DNA from: Candidatus Blautia intestinigallinarum
GTDB lineage: Bacteria > Bacillota > Clostridia > Lachnospirales > Lachnospiraceae
Length of the DNA: 64,000 bases
Assembly: GCA_019112635.1 (NCBI GenBank)
Contig: DXIX01000037.1
Coordinates: forward strand, 1-64,000
Reading direction: 5' to 3'
Shown: positions 6,829-21,651 of the stretch, piece after piece
How the letters are laid out: the number at the start of each line of letters is the position of its first letter
How positions within the stretch are numbered: position 1 is the first letter of the stretch
The notes under the pieces: model-generated
Told to the model about the DNA's origin: nothing
What the model saw: the letters and a program-made list of their open reading frames with translations, nothing else
The model's database searches: none
Made by a program: the position numbers and the translations under genes

Positions 6829-6909
6829 AAGAAATTCCTCCGTTCTTTGTATTATTTTGAGCATTTGTGCCGGCCGGAAAACATCATGCCGGATCCGGCT
6901 GTTGAAATG

Positions 6910-6963
6910 AAAAAAAGAGAGAAGTAGGCCTTATGGCGTTACTTCTCTCTTCACTCTTGTAAC
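6910..6963 (-). promoter_or_regulatory. Leader A: GTTAC/GTAAC hairpin overlapping an intrinsic terminator
   Basis: On the minus strand the transcript begins with GTTAC (6963-6959), a 16-base purine loop AAGAGTGAAGAGAGAA, and GTAAC (6942-6938). The second half of this element, AGAGAGAAGTA (6950-6940), is also the 5' arm of a perfect 11-bp terminator stem closing at 6926-6916 and followed by seven U. The two structures are mutually exclusive. The design matches leaders B and C; the cognate regulator is inferred to be the GlpP-type protein at 20055-20624. Confidence 0.8.
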
Positions 6964-6971
6964 TTGGGATA

Positions 6972-7000
6972 ATCATAAAATATTTATAAAATCTTGTCAA
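6972..7000 (-). promoter_or_regulatory. Promoter of leader A
   Basis: TTGACA (7000-6995) and TATGAT (6977-6972) with a 17-base spacer, 8 bases upstream of the GTTAC element. The transcript should start at or next to the hairpin. Confidence 0.88.
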
Positions 7001-7113
7001 TTCTTTTTGAGGAAAAAGATGAATCTTATAAAATGTATACAAAAAAGATATGTAAAATTTGTGAACACTTCAATAGTATCTTCCGGGTAACTATCCCACA
7101 ATAAAGTGCTTAC

Positions 7114-7142
7114 TTTACGTTAGAAACTCCATTGTCTATAAT
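7114..7142 (+). promoter_or_regulatory. Candidate promoter before the macrodomain/sirtuin pair
   Basis: TTTACG and TATAAT (7137-7142) are separated by 17 bases. The transcript would run through the ferredoxin remnant into the macrodomain gene. The -35 is weak. Confidence 0.5.
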
Positions 7143-7263
7143 AGAGGCAAGAGCTGAGAAAAACGGTTATTTTGTGACAGATAAATGTATCGGCTGCAAG
7201 CTGTGCGATACCAAATGTCCGCAGAAGTGTACTGATCCAGTAAATGCGATAGAACGGAGGTAG
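7132..7263 (+). pseudogene. Remnant of a 4Fe-4S ferredoxin-domain protein
   Basis: The last 44 codons before the macrodomain gene read as a ferredoxin tail. They include CIGCKLCDTKCP followed by QKC, the cysteine spacing of a [4Fe-4S] cluster site, and end at TAG 7261. There is no start codon with a ribosome site; the -10 of the candidate promoter overlaps its first codons. It looks like the 3' end of a larger gene (perhaps a flavin- or pyridoxamine-oxidase/ferredoxin fusion, which is inference) left after a deletion joined it to a promoter. Confidence 0.65.
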
Positions 7264-7267
7264 TATC

Positions 7268-8041
7268 ATGACACAAGAAGAACAGTTGGATTTTCTGATC
7301 CACTATTTACTGAATGAACGCGAAGAATATAAGGACATCCAGATGCCAGACGATCTTTCAGAAAAACAGAGGCTCCTTCGGAGTCTCATGAATGTACGTC
7401 CGCCCATCCCTGCCAGGGAGGATTTTCTGAAAGTACAGGACGCATATCTGCAGGAGCGCCTGGCCCAGAGAGGCATCACAAAACCGGAGGATTTAACACC
7501 GGTGCAGCCAGGAAGGTATCTCTGGCAGGGCGACATCACCACACTGGCGGCAGATGCGATTGTGAATGCGGCAAACAGCCAGATGCTGGGCTGCTTTGTA
7601 CCTTGCCATGGCTGTATTGACAATGCCATTCATACTTATGCAGGCGTGCAGCTCCGCATGGAATGTGCCCGTATTATGGCCAGACAAAAGAAAGAAGAGC
7701 CCACTGGCAAAGCCAAGATTACGAAAGCCTATAATTTGCCCTGCCGTTATGTGCTGCATACGGTGGGCCCTGTCATTTACGGGGCTGTTACACAGACAGA
7801 CCGGGAACTGCTGATAAGCTGCTACCGTTCCTGTCTGGAACTGGCAAAAGATAACAAGCTTCGGAAGATAGCGTTTTGCTGTATTTCCACCGGTGAATTC
7901 CATTTTCCAAATGAACTGGCGGCAGAGATTGCCATACAGACAGTCAAGACATGGCAGCAGCAAAATCCAGAACAGATTGAGGTGATTTTTAATGTTTTCA
8001 AAGACAGCGACTATGAAATCTACAGACACCTGTTGCGATAA
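7268..8041 (+). CDS. Zn-dependent macrodomain protein-ADP-ribose hydrolase
   Basis: A 257-residue protein with an N-terminal helical extension (about 1-75) and a macrodomain (about 80-257) that removes ADP-ribose from proteins. The fold signature GDITTLAADAIVNAANSQMLG is followed by CFVPCHGCIDNAIH. That motif supplies the Cys/His ligands of the zinc-containing macrodomains that are typically linked to class M sirtuins. Start ATG 7268 follows CGGAGG by 7 bases. Its stop lies 50 bases inside the sirtuin gene, so the writer and eraser are tightly coupled. Confidence 0.92.
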   Translation: MTQEEQLDFLIHYLLNEREEYKDIQMPDDLSEKQRLLRSLMNVRPPIPAREDFLKVQDAYLQERLAQRGITKPEDLTPVQPGRYLWQGDITTLAADAIVNAANSQMLGCFVPCHGCIDNAIHTYAGVQLRMECARIMARQKKEEPTGKAKITKAYNLPCRYVLHTVGPVIYGAVTQTDRELLISCYRSCLELAKDNKLRKIAFCCISTGEFHFPNELAAEIAIQTVKTWQQQNPEQIEVIFNVFKDSDYEIYRHLLR

Positions 8042-8918
8042 AATTTCACGGCTGAAACATGAAATTGAGACTGCGGACGCAGTTATCATCGGCGCAGGAG
8101 CCGGACTTTCTGCTTCTGCCGGGTTCACCTATACAGGAAAACGGTTTGAACAGCATTTCAGTGATTTTATCCGAAAATACGGTTTTCATGATATGTATTC
8201 CGGCGGTTTTTATCCCTTTGAAACTTTGGAGGAACACTGGGCATATTGGAGCCGGTATATCTATATCAATCGTTATACTGCCGCGCCAAAGCCTGTTTAC
8301 GATGATCTGTTGAAACTGGTACAGGGCAAGGATTATTTTGTGCTGACCACCAATGTAGATCACTGTTTTCAGAAAGCCGGATTTGACAAGCAGCGTTTGT
8401 TCTATACCCAAGGTGACTACGGCCTGTGGCAGTGCAGCGTACCATGCCATAACAAAACCTATGATAATGAGGCTGTCGTTCGCAAAATGGTGGCGGCGCA
8501 AGGATTCGCCTTTGCGGAAAACGGCGATCTTTATGTCCCGGATGGAACAAAGCTGAAGATGGAAGTTCCCTCTGAATTGATTCCTTACTGTCCTCATTGT
8601 CATAAACCCATGAGCATGAACCTGCGCGCCGATGATACCTTTGTCGAAGATGAGGGCTGGCATCGTGCTGCTGAGCGGTACGGGGCGTTTTTGAAAAGCC
8701 ACCAGAACCAAAAAGTGCTGTTTTTGGAGCTTGCTGTTGGCTACAATACACCGACCATAGTAAAGTACAGTTTCTGGCAGATGACGTATGATTGGCCGAA
8801 TGCGACGTATGCCTGTCTGAATTATGGTGAAGCCTATGCACCTGATGAGATTAAAAGAAAATCCATCTGTGTGAACAAAGACATCGGAGATATTCTGACT
8901 GTTTTGGAAGTCCAGTAA
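7992..8918 (+). CDS. Class M sirtuin (SirTM), protein ADP-ribosyltransferase
   Basis: A 308-residue Sir2-fold protein. GAGAGLSASAGFTYTGKRF is the NAD-binding start (about residues 36-54), and TTNVDHCFQKAG carries the Asn and Asp of the active site. In TQGDYGLWQC the usual sirtuin catalytic His is replaced by Gln, the hallmark of class M enzymes that ADP-ribosylate rather than deacetylate. Paired cysteines C-x2-C (CPHCHK) are present in the zinc region. Start ATG 7992 has GAGGTGA upstream, whereas ATG 8013 has none. In known systems the target is a lipoylated GcvH-like carrier with a dedicated lipoate ligase. Neither gene is in this window, so the substrate may be encoded elsewhere or lost. 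Confidence 0.92.
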   Translation: MFSKTATMKSTDTCCDKISRLKHEIETADAVIIGAGAGLSASAGFTYTGKRFEQHFSDFIRKYGFHDMYSGGFYPFETLEEHWAYWSRYIYINRYTAAPKPVYDDLLKLVQGKDYFVLTTNVDHCFQKAGFDKQRLFYTQGDYGLWQCSVPCHNKTYDNEAVVRKMVAAQGFAFAENGDLYVPDGTKLKMEVPSELIPYCPHCHKPMSMNLRADDTFVEDEGWHRAAERYGAFLKSHQNQKVLFLELAVGYNTPTIVKYSFWQMTYDWPNATYACLNYGEAYAPDEIKRKSICVNKDIGDILTVLEVQ

Positions 8919-8942
8919 GCTCTCCATGATTCTAAAAATCTA

Positions 8943-8992
8943 TTGACTTATATACGAAATCGGATATAATGAATGATGTACGAAATCGGATA
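8943..8992 (+). promoter_or_regulatory. marR promoter with two direct-repeat operators
   Basis: TTGACT (8943-8948) and TATAAT (8965-8970) with a 16-base spacer. TACGAAATCGGATA occurs twice (8953-8966 and 8979-8992), once across the spacer and -10 and once just downstream of the start site, 26 bases apart. This is a typical layout for repression by the adjacent MarR protein. Confidence 0.78.
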
Positions 8993-9013
8993 AGCGAGAA
9001 GGAGGGGGAAAAT

Positions 9014-9445
9014 TTGCACTATTTAGAAGCGGGACAATATACCTATTTAGCAGGAGAAATCAACGCTTTATACCACAAAGCAGCTGTAAAAATGGGTATT
9101 TCGGATAGTGTTCAAAACATTTTATATGTACTCTGTGAGAAGGATGGTAAATGTCTGCAAAGTGAAATAAGTAAACTTACCGGTATCAGCCGTCAGACAA
9201 TCAATTCTGCCATTCGTAAATTGGAAAAAGAGGAAATTGTATATTTGAAACAGGGAAAAGGCAGAAATACTATTCTCTGCCTGACTGAAAAGGGAAAGAA
9301 ATTTTCATCAGAAAAAATAATGCCTTTGCACGAGATTGAAAATAAGATCTGGAATGAGTGGACAGTGGAGGAACAGCAGCAATATCTGACCCTCACGAAA
9401 AAATATCGTGACGGATTAAAAAAATATCTGGAAGCCATGTTATAA
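9014..9445 (+). CDS. MarR-family transcriptional regulator
   Basis: A 143-residue winged-helix regulator. The recognition region LQSEISKLTGISRQTINSAIRKLEKEEIVYL is clear (about residues 50-82), followed by the wing GKGRNTILCLTEKG. The frame extends upstream to 8969, but that would overlap the -10 box. AGGAGG stands 8 bases before TTG 9014, which is therefore the start. It probably represses itself through the repeats at 8953-8992 and the efflux MFS gene downstream. The effector is unknown. Confidence 0.87.
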   Translation: MHYLEAGQYTYLAGEINALYHKAAVKMGISDSVQNILYVLCEKDGKCLQSEISKLTGISRQTINSAIRKLEKEEIVYLKQGKGRNTILCLTEKGKKFSSEKIMPLHEIENKIWNEWTVEEQQQYLTLTKKYRDGLKKYLEAML

Positions 9446-9482
9446 AAGCAGGAAACAAAATCTTTTGAAGGGAGGTGGCTTG

Positions 9483-9497
9483 ATGTCGGCAGCATGA
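9483..9497 (+). other. Possible four-codon leader peptide upstream of the MFS efflux gene
   Basis: An excellent ribosome-binding site GGGAGGTGG precedes ATG-TCG-GCA-GCA-TGA by 7 bases. It encodes only Met-Ser-Ala-Ala, and a GGGGA...TCCCC hairpin follows before the weakly initiated MFS gene. Macrolide-efflux genes are often controlled by such short translated leaders. It could equally be the relic of a deleted gene. Confidence 0.35.
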
Positions 9498-9568
9498 TAA
9501 GGGGATTATCACATTCGAGATTGTCCCCTATTTGAAAAATTATTTTGAAAATGAGAGGACAATTTGAT

Positions 9569-10789: not shown

Positions 10790-10813
10790 TATAAAAAAAT
10801 CAGGAGAATTTCT

Positions 10814-11230
10814 ATGGATAAAATTTGGAGTGATTTGTATAATACAGCAATGAGTGTAATCAAGCCCCGTGAGGTGTCTCGTATAGTTGAGGCAGGCAGT
10901 GTTGCCGCTGCGGTTGAATCTGTTTCGGGGAACATTTATGCGGGTGTCTGCATTGATACTGCCTGTACATTGGGTATATGTGCAGAACGCAATGCCATAT
11001 TTAACATGATCACAAATGGAGAAAATGGTATTCGTCGAGTGATAGCTGTTGAACAGAGCGGAAAAACAATCCCACCTTGTGGCGCTTGCCGAGAATTTAT
11101 GACACAGCTTATGCCGGACAGTTATCGCTCTATTGAGATTATGCTGAATTATGAAAAAGAAAAAATTGTTACATTGGGAGAAATTACTCCCGAATGGTGG
11201 ATAAATGGAGATAGACAGCAAAATGCATAA
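10814..11230 (+). CDS. Cytidine / blasticidin-S deaminase family protein
   Basis: A 138-residue zinc hydrolase of the small tetrameric cytidine deaminase fold. The catalytic motifs are CAERNAIFN (Cys zinc ligand and Glu proton shuttle) and PPCGACREF (two Cys ligands). The N-terminal half (AGSVAAAVESVSGNIYAGVCID) matches the substrate-binding sheet. Start ATG 10814 follows AGGAG. The sequence is closer to the blasticidin-S-deaminase-like group than to standard Cdd. With the efflux pump beside it, a role in nucleoside-antibiotic inactivation is possible but unproven; pyrimidine salvage is the alternative. Confidence 0.82.
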   Translation: MDKIWSDLYNTAMSVIKPREVSRIVEAGSVAAAVESVSGNIYAGVCIDTACTLGICAERNAIFNMITNGENGIRRVIAVEQSGKTIPPCGACREFMTQLMPDSYRSIEIMLNYEKEKIVTLGEITPEWWINGDRQQNA

Positions 11231-11263
11231 AAAGTAAACGATAAAACTAGACAAAATATACAA

Positions 11264-11292
11264 TTGACACAATAGAAAAAATCAGATATACT
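11264..11292 (+). promoter_or_regulatory. Promoter of leader B
   Basis: TTGACA (11264-11269), 17-base spacer, TATACT (11287-11292). The GTTAC element begins 7 bases after the -10, as at leader C. Confidence 0.9.
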
Positions 11293-11299
11293 GAACCCA

Positions 11300-11375
11300 G
11301 TTACAAAGAGCGAGAAGAGAAAAGTAACGTCATGTAGTACTATGTACTGCATGCGTTTTCTTTTCTCTTTTTTTT
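11300..11375 (+). promoter_or_regulatory. Leader B: GTTAC/GTAAC hairpin overlapping an intrinsic terminator
   Basis: GTTAC (11300-11304) and GTAAC (11324-11328) enclose a 19-base purine loop containing AAGAGCGAGAAGAGA. AGAGAAAAG (11316-11324) is also the 5' arm of a terminator whose 3' arm CTTTTCTCT (11360-11368) runs into eight U; an inner GTAGTAC/GTACTGC helix extends it. Pairing of GTTAC with GTAAC would sequester part of the terminator arm. It controls the oxidase/ETF/BCCT/glpP operon starting 117 bases downstream. Confidence 0.8.
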
Positions 11376-11492
11376 ATGTCATAGGAGAGACCTTGTCACG
11401 ATCATACGTGAAAGTCTTTTTCTGTAACGAAACGCTCTGAAAGGATGCGAATGCCGTAAATTTGAAAAAGCAAGCAGAAAGGAGTCAATAAA

Positions 11493-12950
11493 ATGGCAAT
11501 CATTGGGAGAGAAGAAATTGTAGCAGGATTGAAAAAAATCCTTGGGGAAGAGAGAGTAATCACAGATGAGCAGGTACTCAAAGAGAGCAGTGTGGACCGC
11601 TATCGTAAATACGAGCAGGCGATGGAAGTTTATACACAGCCGATTCCTGCAGCAGTAATTTACGTAGAGTCAGCGGAGGAAGTATCCAAAGTATTGCAGT
11701 TCGCAAATGACAATGAGATCAATGTGGTTCCAAGAACCGGACATTCTGCGATTGAAGGCGGTCTTGAAACTGCGTTAAAAGATTCCGTTGTGATTGACGG
11801 ATCTCATATGAATAAAATTATCAAAGTGGACAGATACAACATGCAGGTGACTGCACAGTGCGGTGTGCCGCTTCAGGCGTTGGATGATATGCTCAGAGAA
11901 CAGGGGCTGACTACCGGACATTCACCCCAGTCAAAGCCTTTGGCACAGCTTGGCGGTCTGACGGCAACCAGAAGCATCGGTCAGTTCTCTACTTTGTACG
12001 GTGGAATTGAGGATATGATTGTGGGTCTGGAAGCAGTTTTTCCAAATGGCAAAATCTGCCGTATCAAGAATGTTCCAAGACGTGCAGCAGGTCCTGATAT
12101 CCGTCAGATTGTAATTGGAAATGAGGGAGCTTTGTGCTTCATCACAGAAGTAACCATGAAGCTGTTCCCGTATCTGCCTCAGAATAACCGCTATATCGCA
12201 TATAAACTGGATGATTCCCAGATGAAACTGGGCTTTGACTGCTTAAGAGAAGTCATGGTAAATGGATATCGTCCTTCTTTTGCCCGTCTGTATGATGCGG
12301 CAGATGCACAGCAGCATTTCAGTGCATGGCTGGAGTCGGACAAAGCGATTCTGATCTGGATGGCAGAAGGCGCTGAGGGAATCACGAAGGCGACTTATGA
12401 GGGAATCAAGGAACTGATGTCAAAACATCCGGAACTGGAACCGGTAGAGACCGATTTGATTGAGAAATGGTATCTTGGATTGAACTGGGGACCGGAAAAT
12501 ATTGCTCAGGAGATGGAAGAGATCAAGGCAACCAAAAACATTGGTATTACGACAGAGGTTTCCGGATGCTGGGACTGCATTTATGAAATTTATAAGACTT
12601 CCTGCGAGAGAATTGCCAACGAAGTTCCGGATATTACAATGATCGGCGGACATTCTTCCCACAGCTATATCAACGGCACCAACATGTATTTCTGCTATTA
12701 TTATAATGTAGTGGACTGTGCGCCGGAAGAAGAAATCAACAAATACCACAATCCGATCAATCAGATTATCTGTGAGCAGGTAATCAAATATGGCGGATCA
12801 ATTGTCCATCACCATGGCCTGGGTAAAGCAAGAGCCCACTATGTAACCCAGGAATATGGCTCTTCCTATTATATGTTGAAGACTCTGAAACAGGCGTTTG
12901 ATCCAAATGGAATAATGAATATGGGAACTTTGATTCCGCTGAGGAAATAA
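11493..12950 (+). CDS. FAD-linked oxidase, AGPS/GlcD family (module 1)
   Basis: A 485-residue flavoprotein of the vanillyl-alcohol-oxidase fold. The PP-loop VVPRTGHSAIEGGLE and TGHSPQSKPLAQLGGL bind FAD, and GPDIRQIVIGNEGALCFITE closes the FAD domain. The C-terminus has HHHGLGKAR (from residue 439) and DPNGIMNMGTL. The GPDI...GNEG and triple-His motifs resemble alkyldihydroxyacetonephosphate synthase more than glycolate oxidase. The substrate is a hydroxy-acid or polyol-like compound at best guess. The next two genes encode its own ETF, so electrons probably pass from FAD to that ETF. ATG 11493 follows AAAGGAG. It is the first gene of the operon behind leader B. Confidence 0.85.
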   Translation: MAIIGREEIVAGLKKILGEERVITDEQVLKESSVDRYRKYEQAMEVYTQPIPAAVIYVESAEEVSKVLQFANDNEINVVPRTGHSAIEGGLETALKDSVVIDGSHMNKIIKVDRYNMQVTAQCGVPLQALDDMLREQGLTTGHSPQSKPLAQLGGLTATRSIGQFSTLYGGIEDMIVGLEAVFPNGKICRIKNVPRRAAGPDIRQIVIGNEGALCFITEVTMKLFPYLPQNNRYIAYKLDDSQMKLGFDCLREVMVNGYRPSFARLYDAADAQQHFSAWLESDKAILIWMAEGAEGITKATYEGIKELMSKHPELEPVETDLIEKWYLGLNWGPENIAQEMEEIKATKNIGITTEVSGCWDCIYEIYKTSCERIANEVPDITMIGGHSSHSYINGTNMYFCYYYNVVDCAPEEEINKYHNPINQIICEQVIKYGGSIVHHHGLGKARAHYVTQEYGSSYYMLKTLKQAFDPNGIMNMGTLIPLRK

Positions 12951-13766
12951 ATGAAATTATTGGCATGTTTTAAGGTTGTTCCTGACATGGAAGCTATCAA
13001 CAGCACGGACTGGGAGGTTACAGACTCCCTGTCCGTGGATTTAAGTTATGTGAGGCTGGTCTGGAACTGTTTTGATGAAAGTTCATTGGAAATGTTGCTG
13101 AAGCTTTCTGATTTATCAGAAGGCTTTCCTGCGTTGGTGAACTTGTGGGCGTTGACTGTGGGACAGAAAAATGCAGATTCTTATTTAAAAACTCTGTATG
13201 CGTTGGGTTATGAACGGGCCGTGCGCGTGGAGGAAGACCGTGATCTGCGTTTTTGCCCCGAATGGATGGCAGAAGTCATTTCTGCTTTTGTGAAAAAGGA
13301 AAATACCGTTGATGGAATTGTGATGGGAAGTGTCAGCTCTGATGGAAATAATGGAATGACACCATATCTGACGGCAGAAAAACTGGGCTGGCCATGTATT
13401 TCCCAGGTGATCGGGATGGAGCCGGTAGATGATACACATGTGAAAGTAGTCAGCCAGCAGGATCACGGAAATGTGACCCAGGTGGTGAAGCTGCCCTGTG
13501 TGTTTGCAGTGGGAAATGCACCTTGTTCCTATCTGAGAGTTCCAACCCTGAAAGATCGCATGAAAAAAGGAAAAAAACCTATTGAATATCTGGATATCAG
13601 TCAGCTTGGTTTGAAAAAAGAGATATCGGGGGAAGGATTTGTGCTGACGGGACTGGAACCTGTGAGGCAGGAGAGAGACGGTGTTATCATTGAAGGAGAG
13701 ACGGCTGCGGAGAAAGCCAGAATCTTGTACCAGGATTATTTGAGAGAAAGGTTGGATGCGTTATGA
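12951..13766 (+). CDS. etfB: Electron transfer flavoprotein beta subunit (module 1)
   Basis: A 271-residue EtfB homologue. The N-terminus MKLLACFKVVPDMEAIN and the nucleotide-binding SSDGNNGMTPYLTAEKLGWP are recognisable, but the protein is divergent (canonical starts read MKIVVCVKQVPD). ATG follows the oxidase stop directly (TAAATG). It pairs with the EtfA gene that overlaps its end by 4 bases and should accept electrons from the oxidase at 11493. Confidence 0.85.
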   Translation: MKLLACFKVVPDMEAINSTDWEVTDSLSVDLSYVRLVWNCFDESSLEMLLKLSDLSEGFPALVNLWALTVGQKNADSYLKTLYALGYERAVRVEEDRDLRFCPEWMAEVISAFVKKENTVDGIVMGSVSSDGNNGMTPYLTAEKLGWPCISQVIGMEPVDDTHVKVVSQQDHGNVTQVVKLPCVFAVGNAPCSYLRVPTLKDRMKKGKKPIEYLDISQLGLKKEISGEGFVLTGLEPVRQERDGVIIEGETAAEKARILYQDYLRERLDAL

Positions 13767-14731
13767 GAGAGCCGGTGATTGTAATCAATGGTTTTAGTGA
13801 TAAATACACACAAAAATTCTCTCAGATTCTGGCAGTACTGCCGGAGAATCTGGCAATTCGTAAAATGATTTTTCTCTGTGATGAGAAATACTCTGAGGAA
13901 GCGCTCAGACGTTTTCCGGTAGAATTGGTTCAGGTTGTCTCCTGTCCGGTCTATGATCCAGAGAAGATCCTGCCTGCTTTGGAAGAACTGACGAAAGATG
14001 AAATGTGGGTTCTCTTTGACTCCGGGTATTCCGCTGAGGAACTGGCTGTGAGACTGGCGGCGAGAAAAGGAGGAACCGGTGTCACAAAAGTCCAGGATAT
14101 TTTTGACCAGGAAGGTAAATGGTATTTCCGGAAGATGGTCTATGCCAATCATATGATGGGGACTTTTCAGATTACCAGGTGGCCCTGTTGTCTGTCTCTT
14201 GCGCCAGGAGGAAAGGAAAGAGAAATTCCATTCGAAGCAGATACAGCCAGAGTCCAGATTCTGTCCCTGGAAAGCTCGATTATGGGATATCATCTGGAGA
14301 AGACCGAGAAAGAAGAAGGCCTGGAAAACGCGTCGTTTCTCCTGGCAGCAGGGAGAGGCGCAGGTTCCAGAGAAAATGTCTGTGAGTTGGAAAAGCTTGC
14401 CCGGAAGATGGGAGCGGATTTCGGGGTGAGCCGTCCGGCGGCGATGTCAGCCTGGGCACCGATGAATTGTCTGGTCGGAGTGTCTGGAGCAATGACAAAA
14501 CCGAAAATCTGTATTGCTGCTGGAGCAAGCGGCGCGCCGGCTTTTTATGCGGGAATTGAAAAAAGTGAATTTATTGTGGGAATCAACACAGACGCCAGCG
14601 CGGAACTGGTGAAGAAGTCGGATGTATCTGTGGTGGGAGATTGTATGGAAGTGCTTCGGGAACTGGAGCAGGTGATGGAAGAAGACAGAAAAGAAACAGC
14701 AAAGTGCATCGCTGTCGAAAGGAATGAATAG
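13763..14731 (+). CDS. etfA: Electron transfer flavoprotein alpha subunit (module 1), divergent
   Basis: A 322-residue EtfA with the C-terminal FAD domain AGRGAGSRENV...PKICIAAGASGAPAFYAGIEKSEFIVGIN. The canonical GQTG and GISGAIQH signatures are altered to GVSG and GASGAPAF, so FAD contacts may differ. No ferredoxin domain is present, unlike some electron-confurcating lactate dehydrogenase ETFs. The start overlaps etfB by ATGA. It forms the heterodimer with the preceding EtfB. Confidence 0.85.
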   Translation: MREPVIVINGFSDKYTQKFSQILAVLPENLAIRKMIFLCDEKYSEEALRRFPVELVQVVSCPVYDPEKILPALEELTKDEMWVLFDSGYSAEELAVRLAARKGGTGVTKVQDIFDQEGKWYFRKMVYANHMMGTFQITRWPCCLSLAPGGKEREIPFEADTARVQILSLESSIMGYHLEKTEKEEGLENASFLLAAGRGAGSRENVCELEKLARKMGADFGVSRPAAMSAWAPMNCLVGVSGAMTKPKICIAAGASGAPAFYAGIEKSEFIVGINTDASAELVKKSDVSVVGDCMEVLRELEQVMEEDRKETAKCIAVERNE

Positions 14732-14736
14732 AAGAA

Positions 14737-16128
14737 ATGGTAAGACGATTGTCTGAGGAGATGAGCGAGAAATATCAGGAATTTTTAATTGATGAGTCAA
14801 AATATCAGGGATGGGCTGAGAGTATTTCTTTTCCGGAGACGGAGGAAGAAGTCTGTCAGATTCTCAGACAAATGAAAGAGAACAAGATTCCTGTGACAAT
14901 TCAGGGAGGTAAGACTGGCATTACGGGGGCTTGCGTTCCGGCAGGAGGACATATCTTGAATGTATCCAGGATGAATCGGGTTCTTTTCAGTGATCCTGAA
15001 AATCTGACAGTCACCGTGGAGCCGGGGATGACATTGATGGATCTGGAAAAAGAGATTCTGCGGATTTTTGGAAAGAAGAAAGTATTCTGGCCGGTGCAGC
15101 CCACAGAAAAATCGGCGACGGTGGGTGGAGTGGCGGCCACGGCGGCGCAGGGCCCGAATGAATTCTTTTATGGAGACAGCAGACAGTATTTTGTATCCGC
15201 GCGTATGGTCTGCATGGACGGGCATGTAGAAGAATGGGACAGATCGAATTTGGCTCAGATTCTTGGCCGGGAAGGGACGGCAGGAGTTTTCACTGCTTTA
15301 ACCTTGCGTCTGGTTCCAAAACCGGAGGAGATATGGGGAATCTGTTTTTTCTTCCGGGAGGAAGAAAGCGTGGCATCCTTCGCGGATGAATTGAATGAAC
15401 GGGAATGGAAGTCAAAAGGAGCAAGGCTCACGGCAAAAGAATATCTGGATTCCCAATCTATGCGGCTCATTCAGGAGCGAAAGCAGGACATGGCGAAAAT
15501 ACGGGAATTGCCGGATGTGGATGAATCCTTTGAAGGCATGGTATACCTGGAATTGGAGGGAAATCCCGATGAAGTGGAAGCACTGGCGGAAGAACTGATG
15601 GAGCTGGCTGCCCAGTGGGACAGCGATCCGGATGAGGCCTGGGCTTTGTCCGGAGAGATGGAAGTGGAAAAATTAAGAGCATTTCGCCATGCGGCCGCGG
15701 AATCGGTGAACCTGTGTGTGGAGGCAAATCGAAAGCAGGAACCGGCTCTCACAAAGCTGGGGTCAGATTACAGATATCCGGGACAGAAATTCTCAGAGGT
15801 ACTTGCCCGCAGTCGGGAAATCATGAAGGACAGTGGGTTGGAATATACCATTTTCGGACACCTTGATGAGGCGCATCTGCATATGAATCTTCTGCCTAAA
15901 AATATGGAAGAGTATCAGAAAGGCTGCGAGATTTTGAGAGTATGTGCCAGAGCCTGCCAGGAAGTTGGCGGGGTATTAATTGGAGAGCACGGCATCGGGA
16001 AGCTGAAGCGCAGAATTCTGGAAGGAATTCTTCCAAAAGAGGAATGGAAGGTTTACCGGGAGCTGAAGCAACGGTACGATCCGGATTTTCTACTGAACCC
16101 GGAAAATATTTCCTTGTGGGAGGAATAA
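14737..16128 (+). CDS. FAD-linked oxidase, GlcD type (module 2)
   Basis: A 463-residue flavoprotein related to glycolate/D-lactate dehydrogenases. The FAD PP-loop QGGKTGITGACVPAGG (about residues 54-69), SATVGGVAATAAQGPNEFFYG and GREGTAGVFTALTLRLVPKP are typical; the C-terminal GEHGIGKLKRRIL carries the catalytic-region His. It likely oxidises a 2-hydroxy acid at the cytosolic face and passes electrons to the ETF encoded next. It follows etfA of module 1 by 5 bases with a weak ribosome site, suggesting coupling. Confidence 0.87.
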   Translation: MVRRLSEEMSEKYQEFLIDESKYQGWAESISFPETEEEVCQILRQMKENKIPVTIQGGKTGITGACVPAGGHILNVSRMNRVLFSDPENLTVTVEPGMTLMDLEKEILRIFGKKKVFWPVQPTEKSATVGGVAATAAQGPNEFFYGDSRQYFVSARMVCMDGHVEEWDRSNLAQILGREGTAGVFTALTLRLVPKPEEIWGICFFFREEESVASFADELNEREWKSKGARLTAKEYLDSQSMRLIQERKQDMAKIRELPDVDESFEGMVYLELEGNPDEVEALAEELMELAAQWDSDPDEAWALSGEMEVEKLRAFRHAAAESVNLCVEANRKQEPALTKLGSDYRYPGQKFSEVLARSREIMKDSGLEYTIFGHLDEAHLHMNLLPKNMEEYQKGCEILRVCARACQEVGGVLIGEHGIGKLKRRILEGILPKEEWKVYRELKQRYDPDFLLNPENISLWEE

Positions 16129-16132
16129 AAGA

Positions 16133-16912
16133 ATGCGGATTGCAGTTTGTATGAAACAGGTACCGGCCTATTCCGAGGGAAATATGGATGAGAAGACTGG
16201 AGTACTGATAAGAAGCGGGTTGGAAAATATTGTGAATGTCTATGATCTGGCAGCGCTGGAAGTGGCCCTCCAGGTGAGGGAGGCAGCTGGAGGGACTGTG
16301 ACCGTGTTTACTATGGGTCCGGAGTCTGCACAGAGTGTTTTAAGAGAAGCTTTTGCCAGGGGAGCGGATGAGGGTTGTCTGGTCTGTGACAAAGCCTTTG
16401 CGGGAGCGGATGTACTGACAACTTCCTATACTCTGATGCAGGCGATGAATTCCCAGGGAAAATTCGACTTGATTGTATGTGGCCGTCAGACTACGGACGG
16501 AGATACGGCTCAGGTGAGCGGGGAACTGGCACAGTGGCTTGGAATCCCCCATTGCAATTGGGTATCGGAACTTCAAGAAATCCGGGAAGACGGGGTGATT
16601 TTCTGGCAGAAGACAGACGCTGTGAGAAGAGAGATTGAGGCAGCGTGGCCTTGTCTGCTTTCCGTGGAAAAGAGCAGTGTGACACCCAGAATGCCTTCCC
16701 TGAAATTGAAGATAGCGGGAAAGAAGAAAACAATTATTCGAATTGGACTGGAGGATCTGGAGGATCAGAATCCAGAACATTATGGGCTGAAAGGTTCGGC
16801 GACGAGAGTGAAGAAAATATTTCCTCCTGAGAAAGTACAGCGGCAGGCTGTTCGCAGAATGGATGGAAATGAGGCAGCCAGGTATATTGCTAAGATTCTG
16901 GAAAATGGTTGA
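16133..16912 (+). CDS. etfB: Electron transfer flavoprotein beta subunit (module 2)
   Basis: A 259-residue EtfB close to the family norm. It has MRIAVCMKQVPAYSEGNMDE at the start, DLAALEVALQVREAAGG, and the nucleotide site CGRQTTDGDTAQVSGELAQWLGIP (in two adjoining parts). It lies 4 bases after the GlcD gene and just before its EtfA partner. It is better conserved than the module 1 copy. Confidence 0.92.
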   Translation: MRIAVCMKQVPAYSEGNMDEKTGVLIRSGLENIVNVYDLAALEVALQVREAAGGTVTVFTMGPESAQSVLREAFARGADEGCLVCDKAFAGADVLTTSYTLMQAMNSQGKFDLIVCGRQTTDGDTAQVSGELAQWLGIPHCNWVSELQEIREDGVIFWQKTDAVRREIEAAWPCLLSVEKSSVTPRMPSLKLKIAGKKKTIIRIGLEDLEDQNPEHYGLKGSATRVKKIFPPEKVQRQAVRRMDGNEAARYIAKILENG

Positions 16913-16928
16913 GGAAGGGGGATTTCCG

Positions 16929-17939
16929 GTGAACGAAGAGAAAGAACTGGACAGTTGGAAGGGGATTTTAGTCTGTCTGGAATGGAAAGGAACGGATTTT
17001 CATCCGGTCAGTTATGAACTCCTTGGAGAGGCAAGACGTCTGTCCAGGATCAGTAGGGAACCGGTCTATGCGGTGGGAGTCGGCAGGAAAATCCATGAAG
17101 GGGCCGGTTTGCTGAGACATTGCGGGGCGCAGAAGGTTATTCTCTGTGAGACTTCGATGATTTGTCAGTCGGAATCCTATGCGGATCTTTACGAACACTA
17201 TATCCGGGAATTGATGCCCTCTTCTGTGCTGGTGGGGGGAACGCTGGAAGGGCGTGCCCTGGCACCGCGTCTGGCGGTGCGTTTTCGGACAGGACTCACC
17301 GCAGACTGTACCCGGCTTGAGATGACCGGGGAAGGGGGACTGGTTCAGATCCGTCCAGCCTTTGGAGGAAATCTGATGGCGAGAATTGTGACAGAGAATT
17401 CCAGGCCGCAGTTTGCCACCGTACGTTCCGGTGTGATGGAGAGGGAGGAAGATTCTCTGGAGGAATCACAGGTTTGTCTGGACACGAATCAGCAGGTGAG
17501 GGGGACTCTCAAGGTTCATACAGAAGAAATCCTGAAGCCGGAAGGAAAGATTACGGAAGCAAAAATTCTGGTAGTGGCAGGACGGGGCGTGAAGAGACGG
17601 GAAGATCTGGAACCTCTTTCTATGCTGGCCAGAAAGCTGGGAGGACAGCTGGCATCCAGCAGAGCTTTAGTCGAGAAGGGGTGGACAAAGCCTTCCCAGC
17701 AGATTGGACTGTCTGGAAATACGGTTTCGCCAGATTACATGATTACTTTTGGCGTGTCTGGCACAGTCCAGTTTATGGCTGGAATGAAATCCACCCGCCA
17801 TATTCTGGCTGTGAATACAGATCCGGAGGCAAGGATTTTTCAGATTGCCCATGATCCTATCTGTGCGGATCTCTACGAAGTGGTTCCCAGACTTATTCAG
17901 TTGATAGACCAAAAAAATAGGCAGGAGGAGATATTTTGA
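16929..17939 (+). CDS. etfA: Electron transfer flavoprotein alpha subunit (module 2)
   Basis: A 336-residue EtfA. The C-terminal FAD domain contains GRGVKRREDLEPLSMLARKL, IGLSGNTVSPDYMITFGVSG and MAGMKSTRHILAVNTDPEA; GQTG is replaced by GLSG. The frame is open to 16863, but GGAAGGGGG lies 7 bases before GTG 16929. ATG 16905, overlapping the etfB stop, is the alternative. It completes the second oxidase-EtfB-EtfA set. Confidence 0.87.
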   Translation: MNEEKELDSWKGILVCLEWKGTDFHPVSYELLGEARRLSRISREPVYAVGVGRKIHEGAGLLRHCGAQKVILCETSMICQSESYADLYEHYIRELMPSSVLVGGTLEGRALAPRLAVRFRTGLTADCTRLEMTGEGGLVQIRPAFGGNLMARIVTENSRPQFATVRSGVMEREEDSLEESQVCLDTNQQVRGTLKVHTEEILKPEGKITEAKILVVAGRGVKRREDLEPLSMLARKLGGQLASSRALVEKGWTKPSQQIGLSGNTVSPDYMITFGVSGTVQFMAGMKSTRHILAVNTDPEARIFQIAHDPICADLYEVVPRLIQLIDQKNRQEEIF

Positions 17940-18490
17940 AATTTACTTATCAGTTGACGGCCCAGGAGATTGAAGAAGCCTGGATAGCATCGCAGTGGAG
18001 AAACGTATTGTTCCAGAGGTGGAATCAGTTGATTCTCACCGCACTCGTCATTGGATTTCTGGTTTTTTATACGAAAGACCCGGAAAAGTTTTATCTGATT
18101 TTGTGCGCCGCGCTGATTGTCATTCTGCTTTTTTACAATACATATTTTATTCCCTTTTCCAGAAGAAGAAAGGCCGCAAAGCTGGCAAGGGAAAAAGGAA
18201 TTTATGGAATCAAAATAGGAGAAAGGGGGATCTGGGCAGGAAAAGATTGGAAATTCTATTCTCTGGAAGAACGAAAATGGGAATTACTGGAATCGGATAC
18301 GGTCTATGCACTGAAGGTGGACAGGGAAATTTTCTGTATTCCCAAAAGAGTTCTGTCCAGGGAGGGAACAGAGGCATTGAGGAAGCTGACAAAGCTTGGA
18401 AAATGCAGCTGTCGAAAAATTATAACGGGAGAGGAGAAGAAGTATGGGAGAAACAGGAAAACAAAAAACAGTAAAGATGCCGCTCAATAA
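17936..18490 (+). CDS. YcxB-like membrane protein
   Basis: A 184-residue protein with two adjacent transmembrane helices (about residues 32-66) and a basic cytoplasmic C-terminal domain, matching the layout of YcxB-like proteins of unknown function. The TTG start overlaps the etfA stop and follows GGAGGAG; the 3' end overlaps the BCCT gene by 47 bases. Its place between the ETF and the transporter suggests an accessory membrane role in the pathway. Confidence 0.65.
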   Translation: MKFTYQLTAQEIEEAWIASQWRNVLFQRWNQLILTALVIGFLVFYTKDPEKFYLILCAALIVILLFYNTYFIPFSRRRKAAKLAREKGIYGIKIGERGIWAGKDWKFYSLEERKWELLESDTVYALKVDREIFCIPKRVLSREGTEALRKLTKLGKCSCRKIITGEEKKYGRNRKTKNSKDAAQ

Positions 18491-20051
18491 AATTGTCTTT
18501 TTTCCGCCGTGGCTGGCATTGATTGCTATGGTAGTGGTGAGTCTGACCAATGAAGAGGCTTTCTTGAATGGGTTGAACGCCGTGACCAACTGGATTCTTG
18601 AGAACTTTACCTGGGCATTTAATCTGACGACGCTGGCTTGCCTGATCACGGTGGTTGTCATTTATTTTTCACCCTTTGCGAAGGTGAGAATTGGCGGAAG
18701 AAAGGCGCGCCCGATTATGTCCTTTATGAATCTGGTGTGGATCACCCTTTGTACAACAATTGCCGCAGGAATTTTGTTCTGGGCTTGTGCGGAACCCATG
18801 TATCATCTGTATGCTCCTGCAGCTTTTGAAGGCGTGGAGGCAGGAAGTCCGGGGGCTGCCATGTTTGCCATGAAGACGATGTTTCTGGAATGGACCTGGT
18901 CGCCTTACGCCATTTACACGACAGCGACTTTGATCTTTGCTTTTGTCTTTTATAATATGAAGCAAAAATATTCTATGGGCTCTGTGCTGGTTCCGGCATT
19001 TGGTCCGAAGGTGACAAAATTGAACAATCTGATTGATGTGATCTGTCTGTTTGCTCTGGTGGCAGGTATGGCAGCTTCTCTTGGAACGGGAACTTTGACC
19101 ATCGCCGGCGGAATTCAGAATGTTTTTGGAATTAAGAGCAATCCCACGCTCTGGGCAGCCGTTATCGCTGTGATTGTCATCACCTTTGTCACTTCCAGTG
19201 TGTCAGGAATTATGAATGGTATCCGGATTTTGTCTGACATCAATGCCAAAGCTTATATGATTCTTTTCGTCTTTCTGATTATCTTTGGACCGACAGCGTT
19301 TATGCTGAATTTCTCTGTGGAATCTTACGGAGCTTATCTGAGAGATTTCCTTCCCATGAGTCTGAGTACCGGGGAGATCTTTGGAGAAAGCTGGGCCAGA
19401 TCCTGGCCAGTCTTTTACTGGTGTAACTGGATGTCCTGGACACCAATTACCGCTATTTTTCTGGCAAAGATTTTAAGAGGCTATACCATCAAAGACGCAA
19501 TCCGCTGTAATTTTATTATTCCTTCCATTTTCAGCACTGTGTGGATGGGAATTTTCGCAAGCTCCGCGATTTATTATGAGATGAATGGGGATGGATTGTA
19601 TGAATTGATGCAGAGCAGCGGCACAGAGTCTGTTGTCTATGCAGTTTTGGAGCATATGCCGTTTGCGATGATTTTGATTGTCTTTTATCTGTTTATCGTG
19701 TTTATTTCTTTTGTCACTGCCTCAGACTCCAACACCAACGCCATGGCAGGTCTTTGCACTTACGGTATTACGGATGGGGAAGAAGAGGCACCAGCATGGC
19801 TGAAGATTGTGTGGGGATTATCCATCGCGGTGGTAACCTGGATTGTCATCAGCTTTGCCGGTATCGATGGAATCAAGGCAGCTTCCAACCTGGGTGGTTT
19901 CCCGACCATGTTCCTGATTATTTGTATGATCGTTGGTCTGGTAAAAATTTGCAAAAATCCCTCAAAGTATGATACATTTAAAGAGGATTACACAGAAGAC
20001 GGAAAACCAATTCCGTCTGAGCGTCTTCCAATAAAAAAAGAAGAAGGATAA
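18444..20051 (+). CDS. BCCT-family transporter
   Basis: A 535-residue, 12-helix transporter of the betaine/carnitine/choline family. AAGILFWACAEPM corresponds to the family's glycine-rich helix, WTWSPYAIYTTATL and FYWCNWMSWTPITAIFLAKI to the conserved aromatic signature in TM8. Known members carry compounds with a quaternary ammonium or sulfonium group, though some accept other zwitterions. ATG 18444 follows GAGAGGAGAAG. Being inside the oxidase/ETF operon, it probably imports the operon's substrate or exchanges it for a product. Confidence 0.9.
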   Translation: MGETGKQKTVKMPLNKIVFFPPWLALIAMVVVSLTNEEAFLNGLNAVTNWILENFTWAFNLTTLACLITVVVIYFSPFAKVRIGGRKARPIMSFMNLVWITLCTTIAAGILFWACAEPMYHLYAPAAFEGVEAGSPGAAMFAMKTMFLEWTWSPYAIYTTATLIFAFVFYNMKQKYSMGSVLVPAFGPKVTKLNNLIDVICLFALVAGMAASLGTGTLTIAGGIQNVFGIKSNPTLWAAVIAVIVITFVTSSVSGIMNGIRILSDINAKAYMILFVFLIIFGPTAFMLNFSVESYGAYLRDFLPMSLSTGEIFGESWARSWPVFYWCNWMSWTPITAIFLAKILRGYTIKDAIRCNFIIPSIFSTVWMGIFASSAIYYEMNGDGLYELMQSSGTESVVYAVLEHMPFAMILIVFYLFIVFISFVTASDSNTNAMAGLCTYGITDGEEEAPAWLKIVWGLSIAVVTWIVISFAGIDGIKAASNLGGFPTMFLIICMIVGLVKICKNPSKYDTFKEDYTEDGKPIPSERLPIKKEEG

Positions 20052-20054
20052 CAT

Positions 20055-20624
20055 ATGACAAAAGAATTTTTTCTAGAAGCAACGGAGGTCTCGCCGGTGA
20101 TTCCGGCGGCAAACAGTGAGGAAAGACTGGAAGAGGCGCTGAAGTCAGAGAGTCAGCTGATTTATGTTCTGTACGGGGATATCTGTAACATTGAAGATAT
20201 TGTGGCAAGAATCAAACAGGCAGGAAAAAAAGCAATTGTTCATGTAGATCTGATCACAGGACTCGCTTCCAAAGAGATTGCCTTGGACTTCATGGACAAG
20301 TATGTTCATCCGGATGGGATTATCAGTATGAAATCCAACCTGATTGCCCATGCTAACGAACTTGGCTTTTTCACTATCCAGCGTTTTTATATCATGGACG
20401 TGCTCACTTACCGGAATATTGAGAAACATATCCGGATCGCAGGGCCGGACGTGGTGGAATTCATGCCTGTGGCATTAACGAAGGCTATGGGTTATCTGAT
20501 GGAAAATATTGATAAACCGATTGTGGCCAGCGGTCTTGTCCTGGACAAACAGGATATTATGGAAGCACTGAAGATCGGGGCGGTAGCTGTGTCCACGACA
20601 AACAAAGATCTATGGGATTGTTAG
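20055..20624 (+). CDS. glpP: GlpP-family RNA-binding antiterminator
   Basis: A 189-residue TIM-barrel-like protein of the glycerol-3-phosphate-responsive antiterminator family. Family blocks are visible: VHVDLITGL (about 62-70), GIISMKSNLI (88-97), FFTIQRFYIMD (105-115), DVVEFMPVA, PIVASGLVLDKQDI and GAVAVSTTNKDLW. Length equals Bacillus GlpP, which binds leader mRNA when glycerol-3-phosphate is present and prevents termination. No glpF, glpK or glpD is in the window. Instead, three attenuator leaders of one design (6910, 11300, 21589) stand before this operon, the SDR/kinase operon and an MFS gene, so this protein is the likely regulator of all three, with some sugar or polyol phosphate as ligand. 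It lies 3 bases after the BCCT gene. Confidence 0.9.
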   Translation: MTKEFFLEATEVSPVIPAANSEERLEEALKSESQLIYVLYGDICNIEDIVARIKQAGKKAIVHVDLITGLASKEIALDFMDKYVHPDGIISMKSNLIAHANELGFFTIQRFYIMDVLTYRNIEKHIRIAGPDVVEFMPVALTKAMGYLMENIDKPIVASGLVLDKQDIMEALKIGAVAVSTTNKDLWDC

Positions 20625-20634
20625 GAGAAAGGCG

Positions 20635-21510
20635 ATGCGGGCAGATCTTTCATGTTTTTTGTGCTGTGAGAAGAAGGCCCTTTCTTTGCTGGAACAGTAT
20701 CAGGTTCCATCAGAGAAGAGACTTCTGCTGATGAAAAAAATATACGGAGGTTTTTCCAGGGCAGAGGAGGAGATTTCTGCTCCGGTGCTGATGGCCAAGA
20801 TGATGAAAATTTTGGAAGAACAGATAAAAATGTCAGATGCCTACCGGGAGCCGAAGCGAAAGTACAATCAACTGCTTATGGGAAGAATGGAACAGATAGA
20901 GAAGAGAATCTGGAGTTCTTCTGATCCCTTTTTGGCCGGGCTTTTGTATGCGCTGACAGGAAACTATATTGATTTTGGTGCCATGGATACAGTCAGTGAA
21001 GAAAAGCTTACAGAATTGCTGGACAAATGCGGAGAATTCTCTGTGGATTCTGGGACAGTGGAACACTTGCGGCGGGATCTGGAACAGGCAGGGAACTTAG
21101 TGTATATCACGGACAACGCAGGGGAGATTGTTCTGGATGGACTGTGGCTTCGGACAATCTCAAAGCTGTATCCGAATCTTCGCATTTGTGTGCTGGTGAG
21201 AGGAGAGCCGATTCTTAATGATGCCACTGTCGATGATGCCAGGGATATTGGTCTGGACCGGGAGTTTGATGTGATTCCAAATGGAACCCAAATTCCAGGG
21301 ACATCTTTGGAGCATATAAGCAGGGAAGCCAGAGCGCTTCTGGATCAGGCAGATGTGTGTATTGCCAAAGGCCAGGGGAATTTTGAGAGTCTGCATGGAA
21401 GCCGGCGGAATATATATTATCTGTTTCTGTGTAAATGTGATTTTTTTGTCAGAAAGTTTCAGGTGGAACAATTCACTCCGGTTGTTGCTCATGAGATGGA
21501 TTTTGTATAA
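20635..21510 (+). CDS. DUF89 / ARMT1-like metal-dependent phosphatase
   Basis: A 291-residue protein of the DUF89 damage-control phosphatase family. Conserved points are the N-terminal cysteines (C7, C10, C11), DNAGE (160-164), RGEPILNDATVDDA and AKGQGNFESL, which build the metal and phosphate site. Relatives hydrolyse unwanted sugar or cofactor phosphates. Start ATG 20635 follows AGGAGA. As the last gene of the operon behind leader B it may remove a toxic phosphorylated side product, complementing SurE in the next operon; this role is inferred. Confidence 0.82.
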   Translation: MRADLSCFLCCEKKALSLLEQYQVPSEKRLLLMKKIYGGFSRAEEEISAPVLMAKMMKILEEQIKMSDAYREPKRKYNQLLMGRMEQIEKRIWSSSDPFLAGLLYALTGNYIDFGAMDTVSEEKLTELLDKCGEFSVDSGTVEHLRRDLEQAGNLVYITDNAGEIVLDGLWLRTISKLYPNLRICVLVRGEPILNDATVDDARDIGLDREFDVIPNGTQIPGTSLEHISREARALLDQADVCIAKGQGNFESLHGSRRNIYYLFLCKCDFFVRKFQVEQFTPVVAHEMDFV

Positions 21511-21552
21511 TATACACAAAAAAAGAACCTTTATTTTGATTAATTATACAGA

Positions 21553-21581
21553 TTGACAAAAGCTATATAAGGAATTATACT
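21553..21581 (+). promoter_or_regulatory. Promoter of leader C
   Basis: TTGACA (21553-21558), 17-base spacer, TATACT (21576-21581), with the GTTAC element 7 bases downstream, identical in geometry to leader B. Confidence 0.9.
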
Positions 21582-21588
21582 AAACGCA

Positions 21589-21651
21589 GTTACTTAAAGA
21601 GTGTGAGAGAGAGTAACTTCTGTTTTTCATAAATGGAAGTTGCTCTTTTTT
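21589..21651 (+). promoter_or_regulatory. Leader C: GTTAC/GTAAC hairpin overlapping an intrinsic terminator
   Basis: GTTAC (21589-21593) and GTAAC (21613-21617) enclose a 19-base loop with AAAGAGTGTGAGAGAGA. AGAGTAACTTC (21610-21620) is also the terminator 5' arm, pairing with GAAGTTGCTCT (21636-21646; one G-U pair) and followed by six U. It precedes the SDR/FGGY-kinase/SurE genes by about 100 bases. Confidence 0.8.

Follow-up and report, generated by a model that had tools for sequence, protein, structure and literature searches.

The window analysed here comprises the first 64,000 nucleotides of contig DXIX01000037.1 of Candidatus Blautia intestinigallinarum. It contains three transcription units that share one promoter-plus-attenuator arrangement, and the gene for a GlpP-family protein lies within one of them (Table 1). 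In each of the three 5' leaders, designated A, B and C, a TTGACA box and a -10 box separated by 17 nt are followed by a GTTAC/GTAAC stem closing a purine loop with the motifs AAGAGYG and AGAGA, and by an overlapping intrinsic terminator. The stem begins 8 nt after the -10 box in leader A and 7 nt after it in leaders B and C; the loops measure 16, 19 and 19 nt, and the terminators end in 7, 8 and 6 U at positions 6910, 11375 and 21651, respectively. The terminator of leader C includes a U-G pair. Direct reading of the sequence bears out the preliminary description of this DNA, which had reported the shared promoter and hairpin, the two loop motifs, the overlapping terminators with 6–8 U and the G-U change in C. 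The same description regarded the terminators as compensated: pairing is indeed present, including at the U-G pair, but three paralogous copies alone cannot decide on compensation, for which support comes only from the comparative data given below.

When folded freely, all three leaders adopt the terminator form (-21.9 to -32.1 kcal/mol), and the terminator folding beats 200/200 shuffles for each of them (z of -5.7, -6.9 and -5.1 for A, B and C). Imposing the GTTAC/GTAAC hairpin costs 15.4 kcal/mol in A, 16.8 in B and 15.6 in C, and the free terminator fold pairs three, four and five of the five nucleotides of the GTAAC strand, respectively. Because of this shared strand and this cost, the hairpin and the terminator are mutually exclusive, as had been proposed, and the hairpin would require outside help to prevail. 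The claim that the arrangement is not due to chance also held: in the draft genome of the organism (2.1 Mb, 75.5% complete), the pattern GTTACN{12,24}GTAAC occurs at 6 places, with a purine loop only in leaders A–C, and the stricter GTTACN{0,6}AGAGYGN{4,14}GTAAC yields these three leaders only. An earlier and narrower pattern, whose spacing limits were too tight, had found one of the three window leaders and nothing in 100 shuffles; it was afterwards widened.

Table 1. Leaders and genes of the putative regulon in the window.
Feature	Position	Strand	Elements or basis of naming	Remarks
Leader A	6910-7000	-	TTGACA 7000-6995, TATGAT 6977-6972, hairpin 6963-6938, terminator ~6952-6910	Precedes MFS transporter gene
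Leader B	11264-11375	+	TTGACA 11264-11269, TATACT 11287-11292, hairpin 11300-11328, terminator 11312-11375	Precedes FAD dehydrogenase/electron-transfer flavoprotein (ETF)/BCCT/GlpP operon
Leader C	21553-21651	+	TTGACA 21553-21558, TATACT 21576-21581, hairpin 21589-21617, terminator 21605-21651	Precedes SDR and FGGY kinase genes
MFS transporter	5578-6864	-	PF07690	Behind leader A; 77% identical in genome G085, 30% to E. coli YqcE
FAD-linked dehydrogenase, YgcU homologue (62%)	11493-12950	+	Family match	Nearest solved structures are alkyl-dihydroxyacetone phosphate (DHAP) synthases
ETF pair 1 (beta, alpha)	12951-14731	+	PF01012, PF00766	
Second FAD-linked dehydrogenase	14737-16128	+	PF01565, PF02913	
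Second ETF pair	16133-17939	+	Sequence likeness	Best matched by annotated Enterococcus ETF subunits
Small protein	17936-18490	+		Poorly conserved, 29-38% identical in 16 related loci where found; mostly beside BCCT gene; no family assigned
BCCT-family transporter	18444-20051	+	PF02028	
GlpP-family (YgcP-type) protein	20055-20624	+	PF04309, 202.7 bits (cut-off 27)	Proposed antiterminator, in operon behind leader B; 42% identical to E. coli YgcP
ARMT1-like damage-control phosphatase	20635-21510	+	PF01937	Final gene of the leader B run
SDR oxidoreductase, YgcW homologue (60%)	21633-22535	+	Family match	Listed ATG falls within leader C
FGGY-family kinase, YgcE homologue (56%)	22555-23985	+		Proposed maker of the sensed phosphorylated ligand

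The GlpP-family protein is the sole PF04309 match in its own genome (75.5% complete) and matches the structure PDB 3kts (E = 4e-27). Its gene sits behind leader B, i.e., behind one of its own presumed targets, in a run of closely packed genes spanning 11493-21510. The genes found behind the leaders encode MFS, FAD dehydrogenase/ETF, BCCT, SDR and FGGY kinase proteins and not the glycerol set glpF, glpK, glpD, glpT and glpQ. GlpK is itself an FGGY kinase; the kinase of the window falls far under the GlpK cut-off (113.9 vs. 590.35 bits) and, among solved structures, is nearest to autoinducer-2 (AI-2) and glycerol kinases. The window does hold the ygc-type set of a GlpP-family protein, an SDR, an FGGY kinase and a YgcU-type dehydrogenase, and its proteins are 30% (YqcE) to 62% (YgcU) identical to those of E. 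coli. The putative regulon is a Gram-positive counterpart of the E. coli K-12 ygc cluster, and not a glycerol regulon. As the listed ATG of the SDR gene falls within leader C, its true start is probably further inside; the MFS gene is listed from its first ATG at 6864, and the G085 homologue starts at an inner MNKAFVK. The FGGY kinase gene behind leader C is followed by a gene whose product we take, from its likeness, to be SurE-like.

For the comparative analysis, a set of 47 leaders from 19 related loci (see below), G000, G085, E. coli and E. raffinosus was assembled from 49 unique candidates, minus three spurious ones (L098:1349-1406 minus, L102:8495-8571 and L102:17431-17555) and plus L056:7626-7714 from G085; the set retains L102:618-686, for which the script chose a doubtful 3' strand. 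A covariance model (R1) was trained on 38 of the 47, which belong to Lachnospiraceae and near kin, leaving out E. coli, Enterococcus, near-duplicates and L102:618. Leaders A, B and C, all three in the training set, score 52.9, 61.8 and 57.2 bits. In 200 genomes of the family, searched with stricter filters at which weak matches are lost, R1 at E ≤ 0.01 matched three genomes (G000, G085 and G077, the last independent of the training) with three leaders each, and all nine matches share a contig with a PF04309 gene ~1–14 kb distant. R1 thus did not find the motif independent of GlpP homologues, which supports the GlpP-type reading put forward in the preliminary description. The co-occurrence expected there holds in one direction: a leader implies a PF04309 gene nearby, whereas PF04309, above cut-off in 52/200 genomes, does not imply a leader (3/200). 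Since most GlpP-bearing genomes, namely those outside the three, lack an R1 match, this form of leader marks the ygc-type regulator and not GlpP generally.

A search of genome contigs with the GlpP proteins of the window and G085 returned 19 loci, hosted by Dorea, Extibacter, Faecalicatena, Tyzzerella, Claveliimonas, Epulonipiscium and several metagenome-assembled genomes. At least one leader is present in 19/19 of them, as are homologues of the SDR and the FGGY kinase, while the remaining gene set is somewhat variable. The three sites recur in equivalent places in G085 and others, with leader A at the same place in G085 (L056). In eight whole genomes (those of six of the 19 loci, G000 and G085), R1 gave exactly three matches each at E ≤ 1, and 24/24 matches lie within ~13 kb of a GlpP gene; seven of these genomes supplied training leaders and the eighth (that of L094) is a near twin, so that only the absence of extra matches is informative. 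A loose pattern run on the 200 family genomes returned 21 places, i.e., three in the window, two in G085 and 16 in 15 others. The 16 were treated as chance, because their loops are mostly not purine runs and they were fewer than in the reversed-pattern control; in G056 and G126, which both have GlpP, the match and the GlpP gene lie on separate contigs. This pattern failed on the third leader of G085 and on all leaders of G077. GTTACN{12,24}GTAAC was uninformative in the 'genus' sample, with matches in 60/60 genomes, mostly fewer than in the control.

The architecture of the leaders is conserved. Over the set of 47, the promoter spacer is 17 nt in 42, and the stem starts 7 nt after the -10 box in 31 leaders and 8 nt after it in 12 (43/47 together). 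The median energy is -27.7 kcal/mol for free folding and -12.0 kcal/mol with the hairpin forced, and the 3' strand of the hairpin is partly paired in the free terminator fold in 47/47 (at least 2/5 nt), with at least 4/5 nt paired in 40/47. In 61 ygc-type hairpins, whose pairs were counted by fixed position, the MAFFT alignments being misaligned, the outer pair is GC in 57, AU in three and GU in one, and never A-C, though the pattern permitted it; the second pair is UA in 57 and UG in four, and the other pairs are invariant. Two rows are doubtful, namely L098 minus 1396 (one AU pair) and L102 plus 628 (the GU pair), and the solid AU outer pairs are those of E. coli yqcE and locus L126, from two phyla.

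The E. coli relatives of PF04309 surfaced in a search of a plasmid collection, and the K-12 record then showed the ygc cluster: ygcP, ygcQ and ygcR (putative flavoproteins, ETF-like), ygcS and ygcU, with ygcW divergent from yqcE-ygcE. The 318-bp gap between ygcW and yqcE holds two leaders on opposite strands, back to back. The leader before ygcW, GTTAC-CAGAGATAATGAGAAAG-GTAAC, runs into a terminator (-31.2 kcal/mol, z -6.2); the leader before yqcE, ATTAC-TAGAGACCTGAGAAAA-GTAAT, has a compensated stem pair and likewise runs into a terminator (-20.7 kcal/mol, z -4.3). Both are found by R1, from which E. coli was held out, with 40.7 and 30.7 bits (E = 5e-5 and 0.005 in 148,560 bases). Of 5426 complete E. 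coli genomes, 5018 have a match to the gap, which in 4998 of them extends over 80% of its length or more, and in a comparison of five strains all 14 substitution columns fall outside the hairpins and terminators, the sole change inside being the length of one U-run. At the centre of the divergent arrangement there is a palindrome, presumably of the CRP type.

In the excerpted passages of the relevant papers, a genomic SELEX (systematic evolution of ligands by exponential enrichment) study of CRP names ygcW<>yqcE (PMC3105977), a phylogenetic scan for CRP sites ranks ygcW and yqcE (PMC1794230), and RpoD promoters and H-NS are given at ygcW/yqcE (PMC3946193). RNA-seq and Northern blot have detected a small RNA on the yqcE strand, upstream of that gene (PMC4681348). 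The attenuated leader at L135 16497-16568 (NC_000913.3 ~2900496-2900567) fits this RNA and may be identical with it. A riboswitch screen whose excerpt mentions ygcW (PMC4448311) concerns windows 3.5–4.2 kb from that gene, and hence not this leader. No description of the element in E. coli was found among the matches listed in the open-licence PMC literature (titles, abstract starts and passages).

The motif had been framed for Lachnospiraceae, where it is indeed present, but its range is wider and takes in E. coli, Enterococcus megaplasmids and Streptomyces clavuligerus. Leaders held out of R1 were found by it before an MFS gene on megaplasmids of E. raffinosus (31.0 bits, E = 0.004) and E. 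gilvus (30.0 bits, E = 0.007), and, as GTTAC-TAGAGACCAGAGAACA-GTAAC, before an SDR gene in S. clavuligerus (32.9 bits, E = 0.002). Among 59 further GlpP loci the top R1 match is L126 (genome G300; E = 0.044), a locus with the order GlpP-leader-SDR-FGGY. In E. raffinosus (L136 15837-17066) the GlpP-type gene is separated from the SDR gene by an IS110 element, which is absent in E. gilvus (L163). In a GlpP tree of 93 rows, the ygc-type proteins form two groups of 21 and 5 rows, with L126 in the latter, within a supported set of 57; a single ygc clade is neither established nor ruled out (p-AU 0.09), and neither a common origin nor transfer is claimed here. One clade-specific column passed the thresholds, S159 (S in 23/26 ygc-type proteins, G in 64/67 others), which is no more than suggestive with regard to the ligand.

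A related element was found at other GlpP loci by scanning for a core, RGAG..GAG, that adjoins the 5' arm of an intrinsic terminator; at 58 non-ygc loci the sequence read extended ~1.5 kb to either side of the GlpP gene. The core with a terminator is present at 26/26 ygc loci and at 20/58 other GlpP loci, vs. 1.4 on average and 6 at most among 20 shuffled sets, and at 0/47 control loci. The controls had been fetched for other reasons and their GlpP status was not checked; originally there were 48, and the sole match, L012, proved to be the ygc locus of G085 and was removed. The sequence scanned amounted to 136,580 bases for the controls (including L012) vs. 200,462 for the GlpP set. The element typically reads stem-GGAGAAACGGAGA-stem or stem-AGAGATGAGAG-stem. 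Its flanks are locus-specific yet complementary: at 27 sites the mean best stem is 4.52 vs. 3.22 when flanks are swapped, and 0/2000 swaps reach as high; these sites come from 67 loci (the 58 and nine of the plasmid collection), and some look like chance, e.g., L041, L159 and L162. Of 15 downstream frames located, ten were scanned, giving five DAO-type (glycerol-3-phosphate (G3P) dehydrogenase-like), three aquaporin (GlpF-type), one RuBisCO-like and one PhoU-like protein. At a Cytobacillus glpF/glpK/glpD-type locus, RGAG-repeat cores overlap the terminators before glpF and glpD. Four of the other five downstream frames, at L038, L050, L053 and L055 (~1.1–1.4 kb into the minus strand), coincide with glpP, which there follows immediately after the core and terminator; the window is therefore not alone in having a leader before glpP, and these arrangements suggest that self-control may be common among GlpP loci.

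Three further loci are recorded here as separate observations. At L134 (from 2274), a GlpP-family gene precedes a hairpin with the loop AGAGACGAGAG and a terminator, both ahead of the gene of a RuBisCO-like protein; this is possibly another non-glycerol GlpP regulon. On a Planococcus plasmid (L159 7565-7760), ACAGAGAGACC stands before a terminator ahead of an ABC transporter operon adjoining a GlpP-family gene. A Klebsiella record (L162 7007-12253) encodes a very divergent PF04309 protein together with an FGGY kinase, an SDR, a 2-hydroxyacid dehydrogenase, an aldolase of the DAHP (3-deoxy-D-arabino-heptulosonate 7-phosphate) type and a PTS (phosphotransferase system) subunit, perhaps a third kind of GlpP-linked cluster.

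We consider it highly probable that the leaders are conditional terminators under antitermination by the GlpP-family (YgcP-type) protein. To the computed sequences, exclusive folds, conservation, glpP linkage and stem pairing in distant relatives, the proposed mechanism would add the start sites, the protein binding, the ligand, the direction of control and autoactivation. Transcription would start next to GTTAC, and, because the start is expected 7–8 nt past the -10 box, the hairpin would lie at or beside the 5' end of the RNA. In the uninduced state, the stronger terminator hairpin (-22 to -32 kcal/mol) would form and transcription would halt. When the catabolic substrate is available, the GlpP-family protein would bind a phosphorylated intermediate, most likely the FGGY kinase product, and in its ligand-bound state it would attach to the purine loop with its two RAGAG-like repeats and stabilise the weak GTTAC/GTAAC stem. 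Holding the stem would remove the 5' arm of the terminator and allow read-through into the MFS unit, the dehydrogenase/ETF/BCCT/glpP operon and the SDR-kinase unit. The circuit would be self-amplifying, since glpP sits behind leader B.

An FGGY kinase is encoded inside 26/26 ygc loci, 22/58 other GlpP loci (1.5-kb flanks) and 0/47 control loci. In Bacillus, the product of GlpK activates GlpP, according to excerpts of PMC9604022. By analogy, we infer that the ygc-type GlpP proteins sense the product of their own FGGY kinase. The uptake genes nearby vary by host (BCCT, osmoprotectant-type ABC or MFS). The YgcU-type dehydrogenase of the window is nearer to the structures of alkyl-DHAP synthases than to glycolate oxidase, which is a hint to the substrate of the pathway. 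Alkylglycerol and quaternary amines were considered as candidates, from this likeness and from the BCCT and osmoprotectant transporters, and nothing decides between them.

In its sequence, the window motif seems to be one version of a broader GlpP-family element in which a closed loop carries two RGAG repeats. We also think it fairly probable that a single RNA code is common to the whole GlpP family, across Bacillota, E. coli and Streptomyces. This code would consist of two RGAG(A) repeats looped out by a short hairpin, with the 3' strand of the hairpin doubling as the 5' arm of a terminator. It would report the product of an FGGY kinase (glycerol-3-phosphate in glp, another phosphate in ygc), and in E. 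coli K-12 it would govern the ygc operons by way of YgcP and the two conditional terminators that lie back to back.

Several results weigh against these interpretations. The stem hardly varies within the 38-leader set, where 0/5 pairs changed on both sides, and covariation support there is nil; the case for compensated pairs rests on E. coli yqcE and L126. Loop spacing and the spelling of the repeats vary, and AGAGYG is not universal even in ygc leaders. E. coli lacks a strong promoter at the fixed spacing (the best -35/-10 scores are 7 and 8 of 12). In the ~1.5 kb read on each side, 38/58 non-ygc GlpP loci have no core beside a terminator. Canonical GlpP leaders were not found by R1 (six matches at E ≤ 5 in 59 loci, the best being the ygc-type L126), so that the family-wide motif rests on the scan for core and terminator and not on R1.

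Antitermination could be secondary if the GlpP-family protein bound the 5'-terminal hairpin chiefly to protect the mRNA from decay. The position of the hairpin, 7–8 nt past the -10 box in most leaders, would suit such a role, and GlpP is said to stabilise glpD mRNA too (excerpts of PMC7430163); yet the 3' strand is shared with the terminator fold in all 47 leaders, which protection alone would not need, and we regard this explanation as improbable. It is likewise quite improbable that the conditional terminators are run by another factor (another RNA-binding protein, ribosome stalling or a riboswitch-like small molecule), with the linkage to glpP a by-product of the operon. Riboswitches may have the same layout, but Rfam 15 at gathering score has no family on the window or on the leaders of six related loci (one match, sok, lies elsewhere in E. 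coli); the best sub-threshold matches reach 24.8 bits vs. a cut-off of 72 and 25.9 vs. 100 (SurA sRNA, E = 2.9e-5). Ten window proteins scanned have no ANTAR, PRD or CAT-RBD domain, and the loop core marks other GlpP loci, with different downstream genes, far beyond the shuffled mean.

That the cassettes are promoter-terminator units making small regulatory RNAs, and not attenuators, seems highly improbable. The E. coli RNA upstream of yqcE is catalogued as a small RNA in the excerpted source (PMC4681348), but at the loci examined the genes behind the leaders belong to one pathway and share the orientation of the leaders, and the overlap of hairpin and terminator is retained in three phyla. 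Chance likeness, or copying of one promoter region inside the window, has an almost negligible probability: although the three copies lie within 15 kb, their terminators and spacers differ, and the recurrence of the same three sites in G085 and others contradicts it.

Conditional termination under the GlpP-family protein would place the leaders in a class known from B. subtilis, whose GlpP, in excerpts of PMC9604022, acts on three promoters (glpD, glpFK and glpTQ), all of them followed by a 5' untranslated region that contains a GlpP site and a terminator. The window shares the PF04309 regulator and the combination of promoter, conserved site and overlapping intrinsic terminator, and across genomes the leader lies near the regulator gene. 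Compared with the published description of the B. subtilis leaders, the window differs in that the targets are the ygc set, the stem is a near-fixed GTTAC/GTAAC, the regulator gene is inside its own presumed target operon, and the ligand is presumably not glycerol-3-phosphate. The mechanism class is known; what is new, as far as searched, is the gene set, the near-fixed 5'-terminal stem and the cases of E. coli and Streptomyces. The E. coli ygcW/yqcE region has a homologous gene set and the same hairpin with overlapping terminator in two leaders, but it is divergent around the CRP-type palindrome, lacks a BCCT gene and the strong fixed-spacing promoter, and has the extra genes ygcN and ygcO.

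Among other antiterminators, LicT and SacY of the BglG family act on a ribonucleic antiterminator (RAT), a bulged stem. As with these proteins, a hairpin competing with a terminator would be stabilised by a protein (for LicT, excerpts of PMC7430163); here, unlike there, that protein is of the GlpP family and the RNA has a purine-repeat loop, not a RAT stem. The repeats recall the purine-rich NAG triplets in nascent RNA described for HutP (excerpts of PMC7430163) and the G/UAG triplets described for TRAP, but the window leaders have two repeats only, in a hairpin loop, and the protein family is another. Unlike ANTAR systems, the leaders have one hairpin and a terminator, not tandem hairpins.

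The GlpP logic, known for the glycerol genes of Bacillus, is hereby predicted for another pathway in three phyla, including E. coli, whose YgcP, annotated merely as a 'putative anti-terminator', gains a defined candidate RNA target. A possible role is also offered for the unexplained small RNA upstream of yqcE. Leader-reporter fusions would provide an assay for screening the ygc substrate, and a rule is proposed for the family, whose members would sense what an FGGY kinase produces and would recognise GAG repeats that come in pairs. Elsewhere in the window, at 7268-8918, two neighbouring open reading frames resemble what we take, from sequence alone, to be a macrodomain protein and a sirtuin-type protein.

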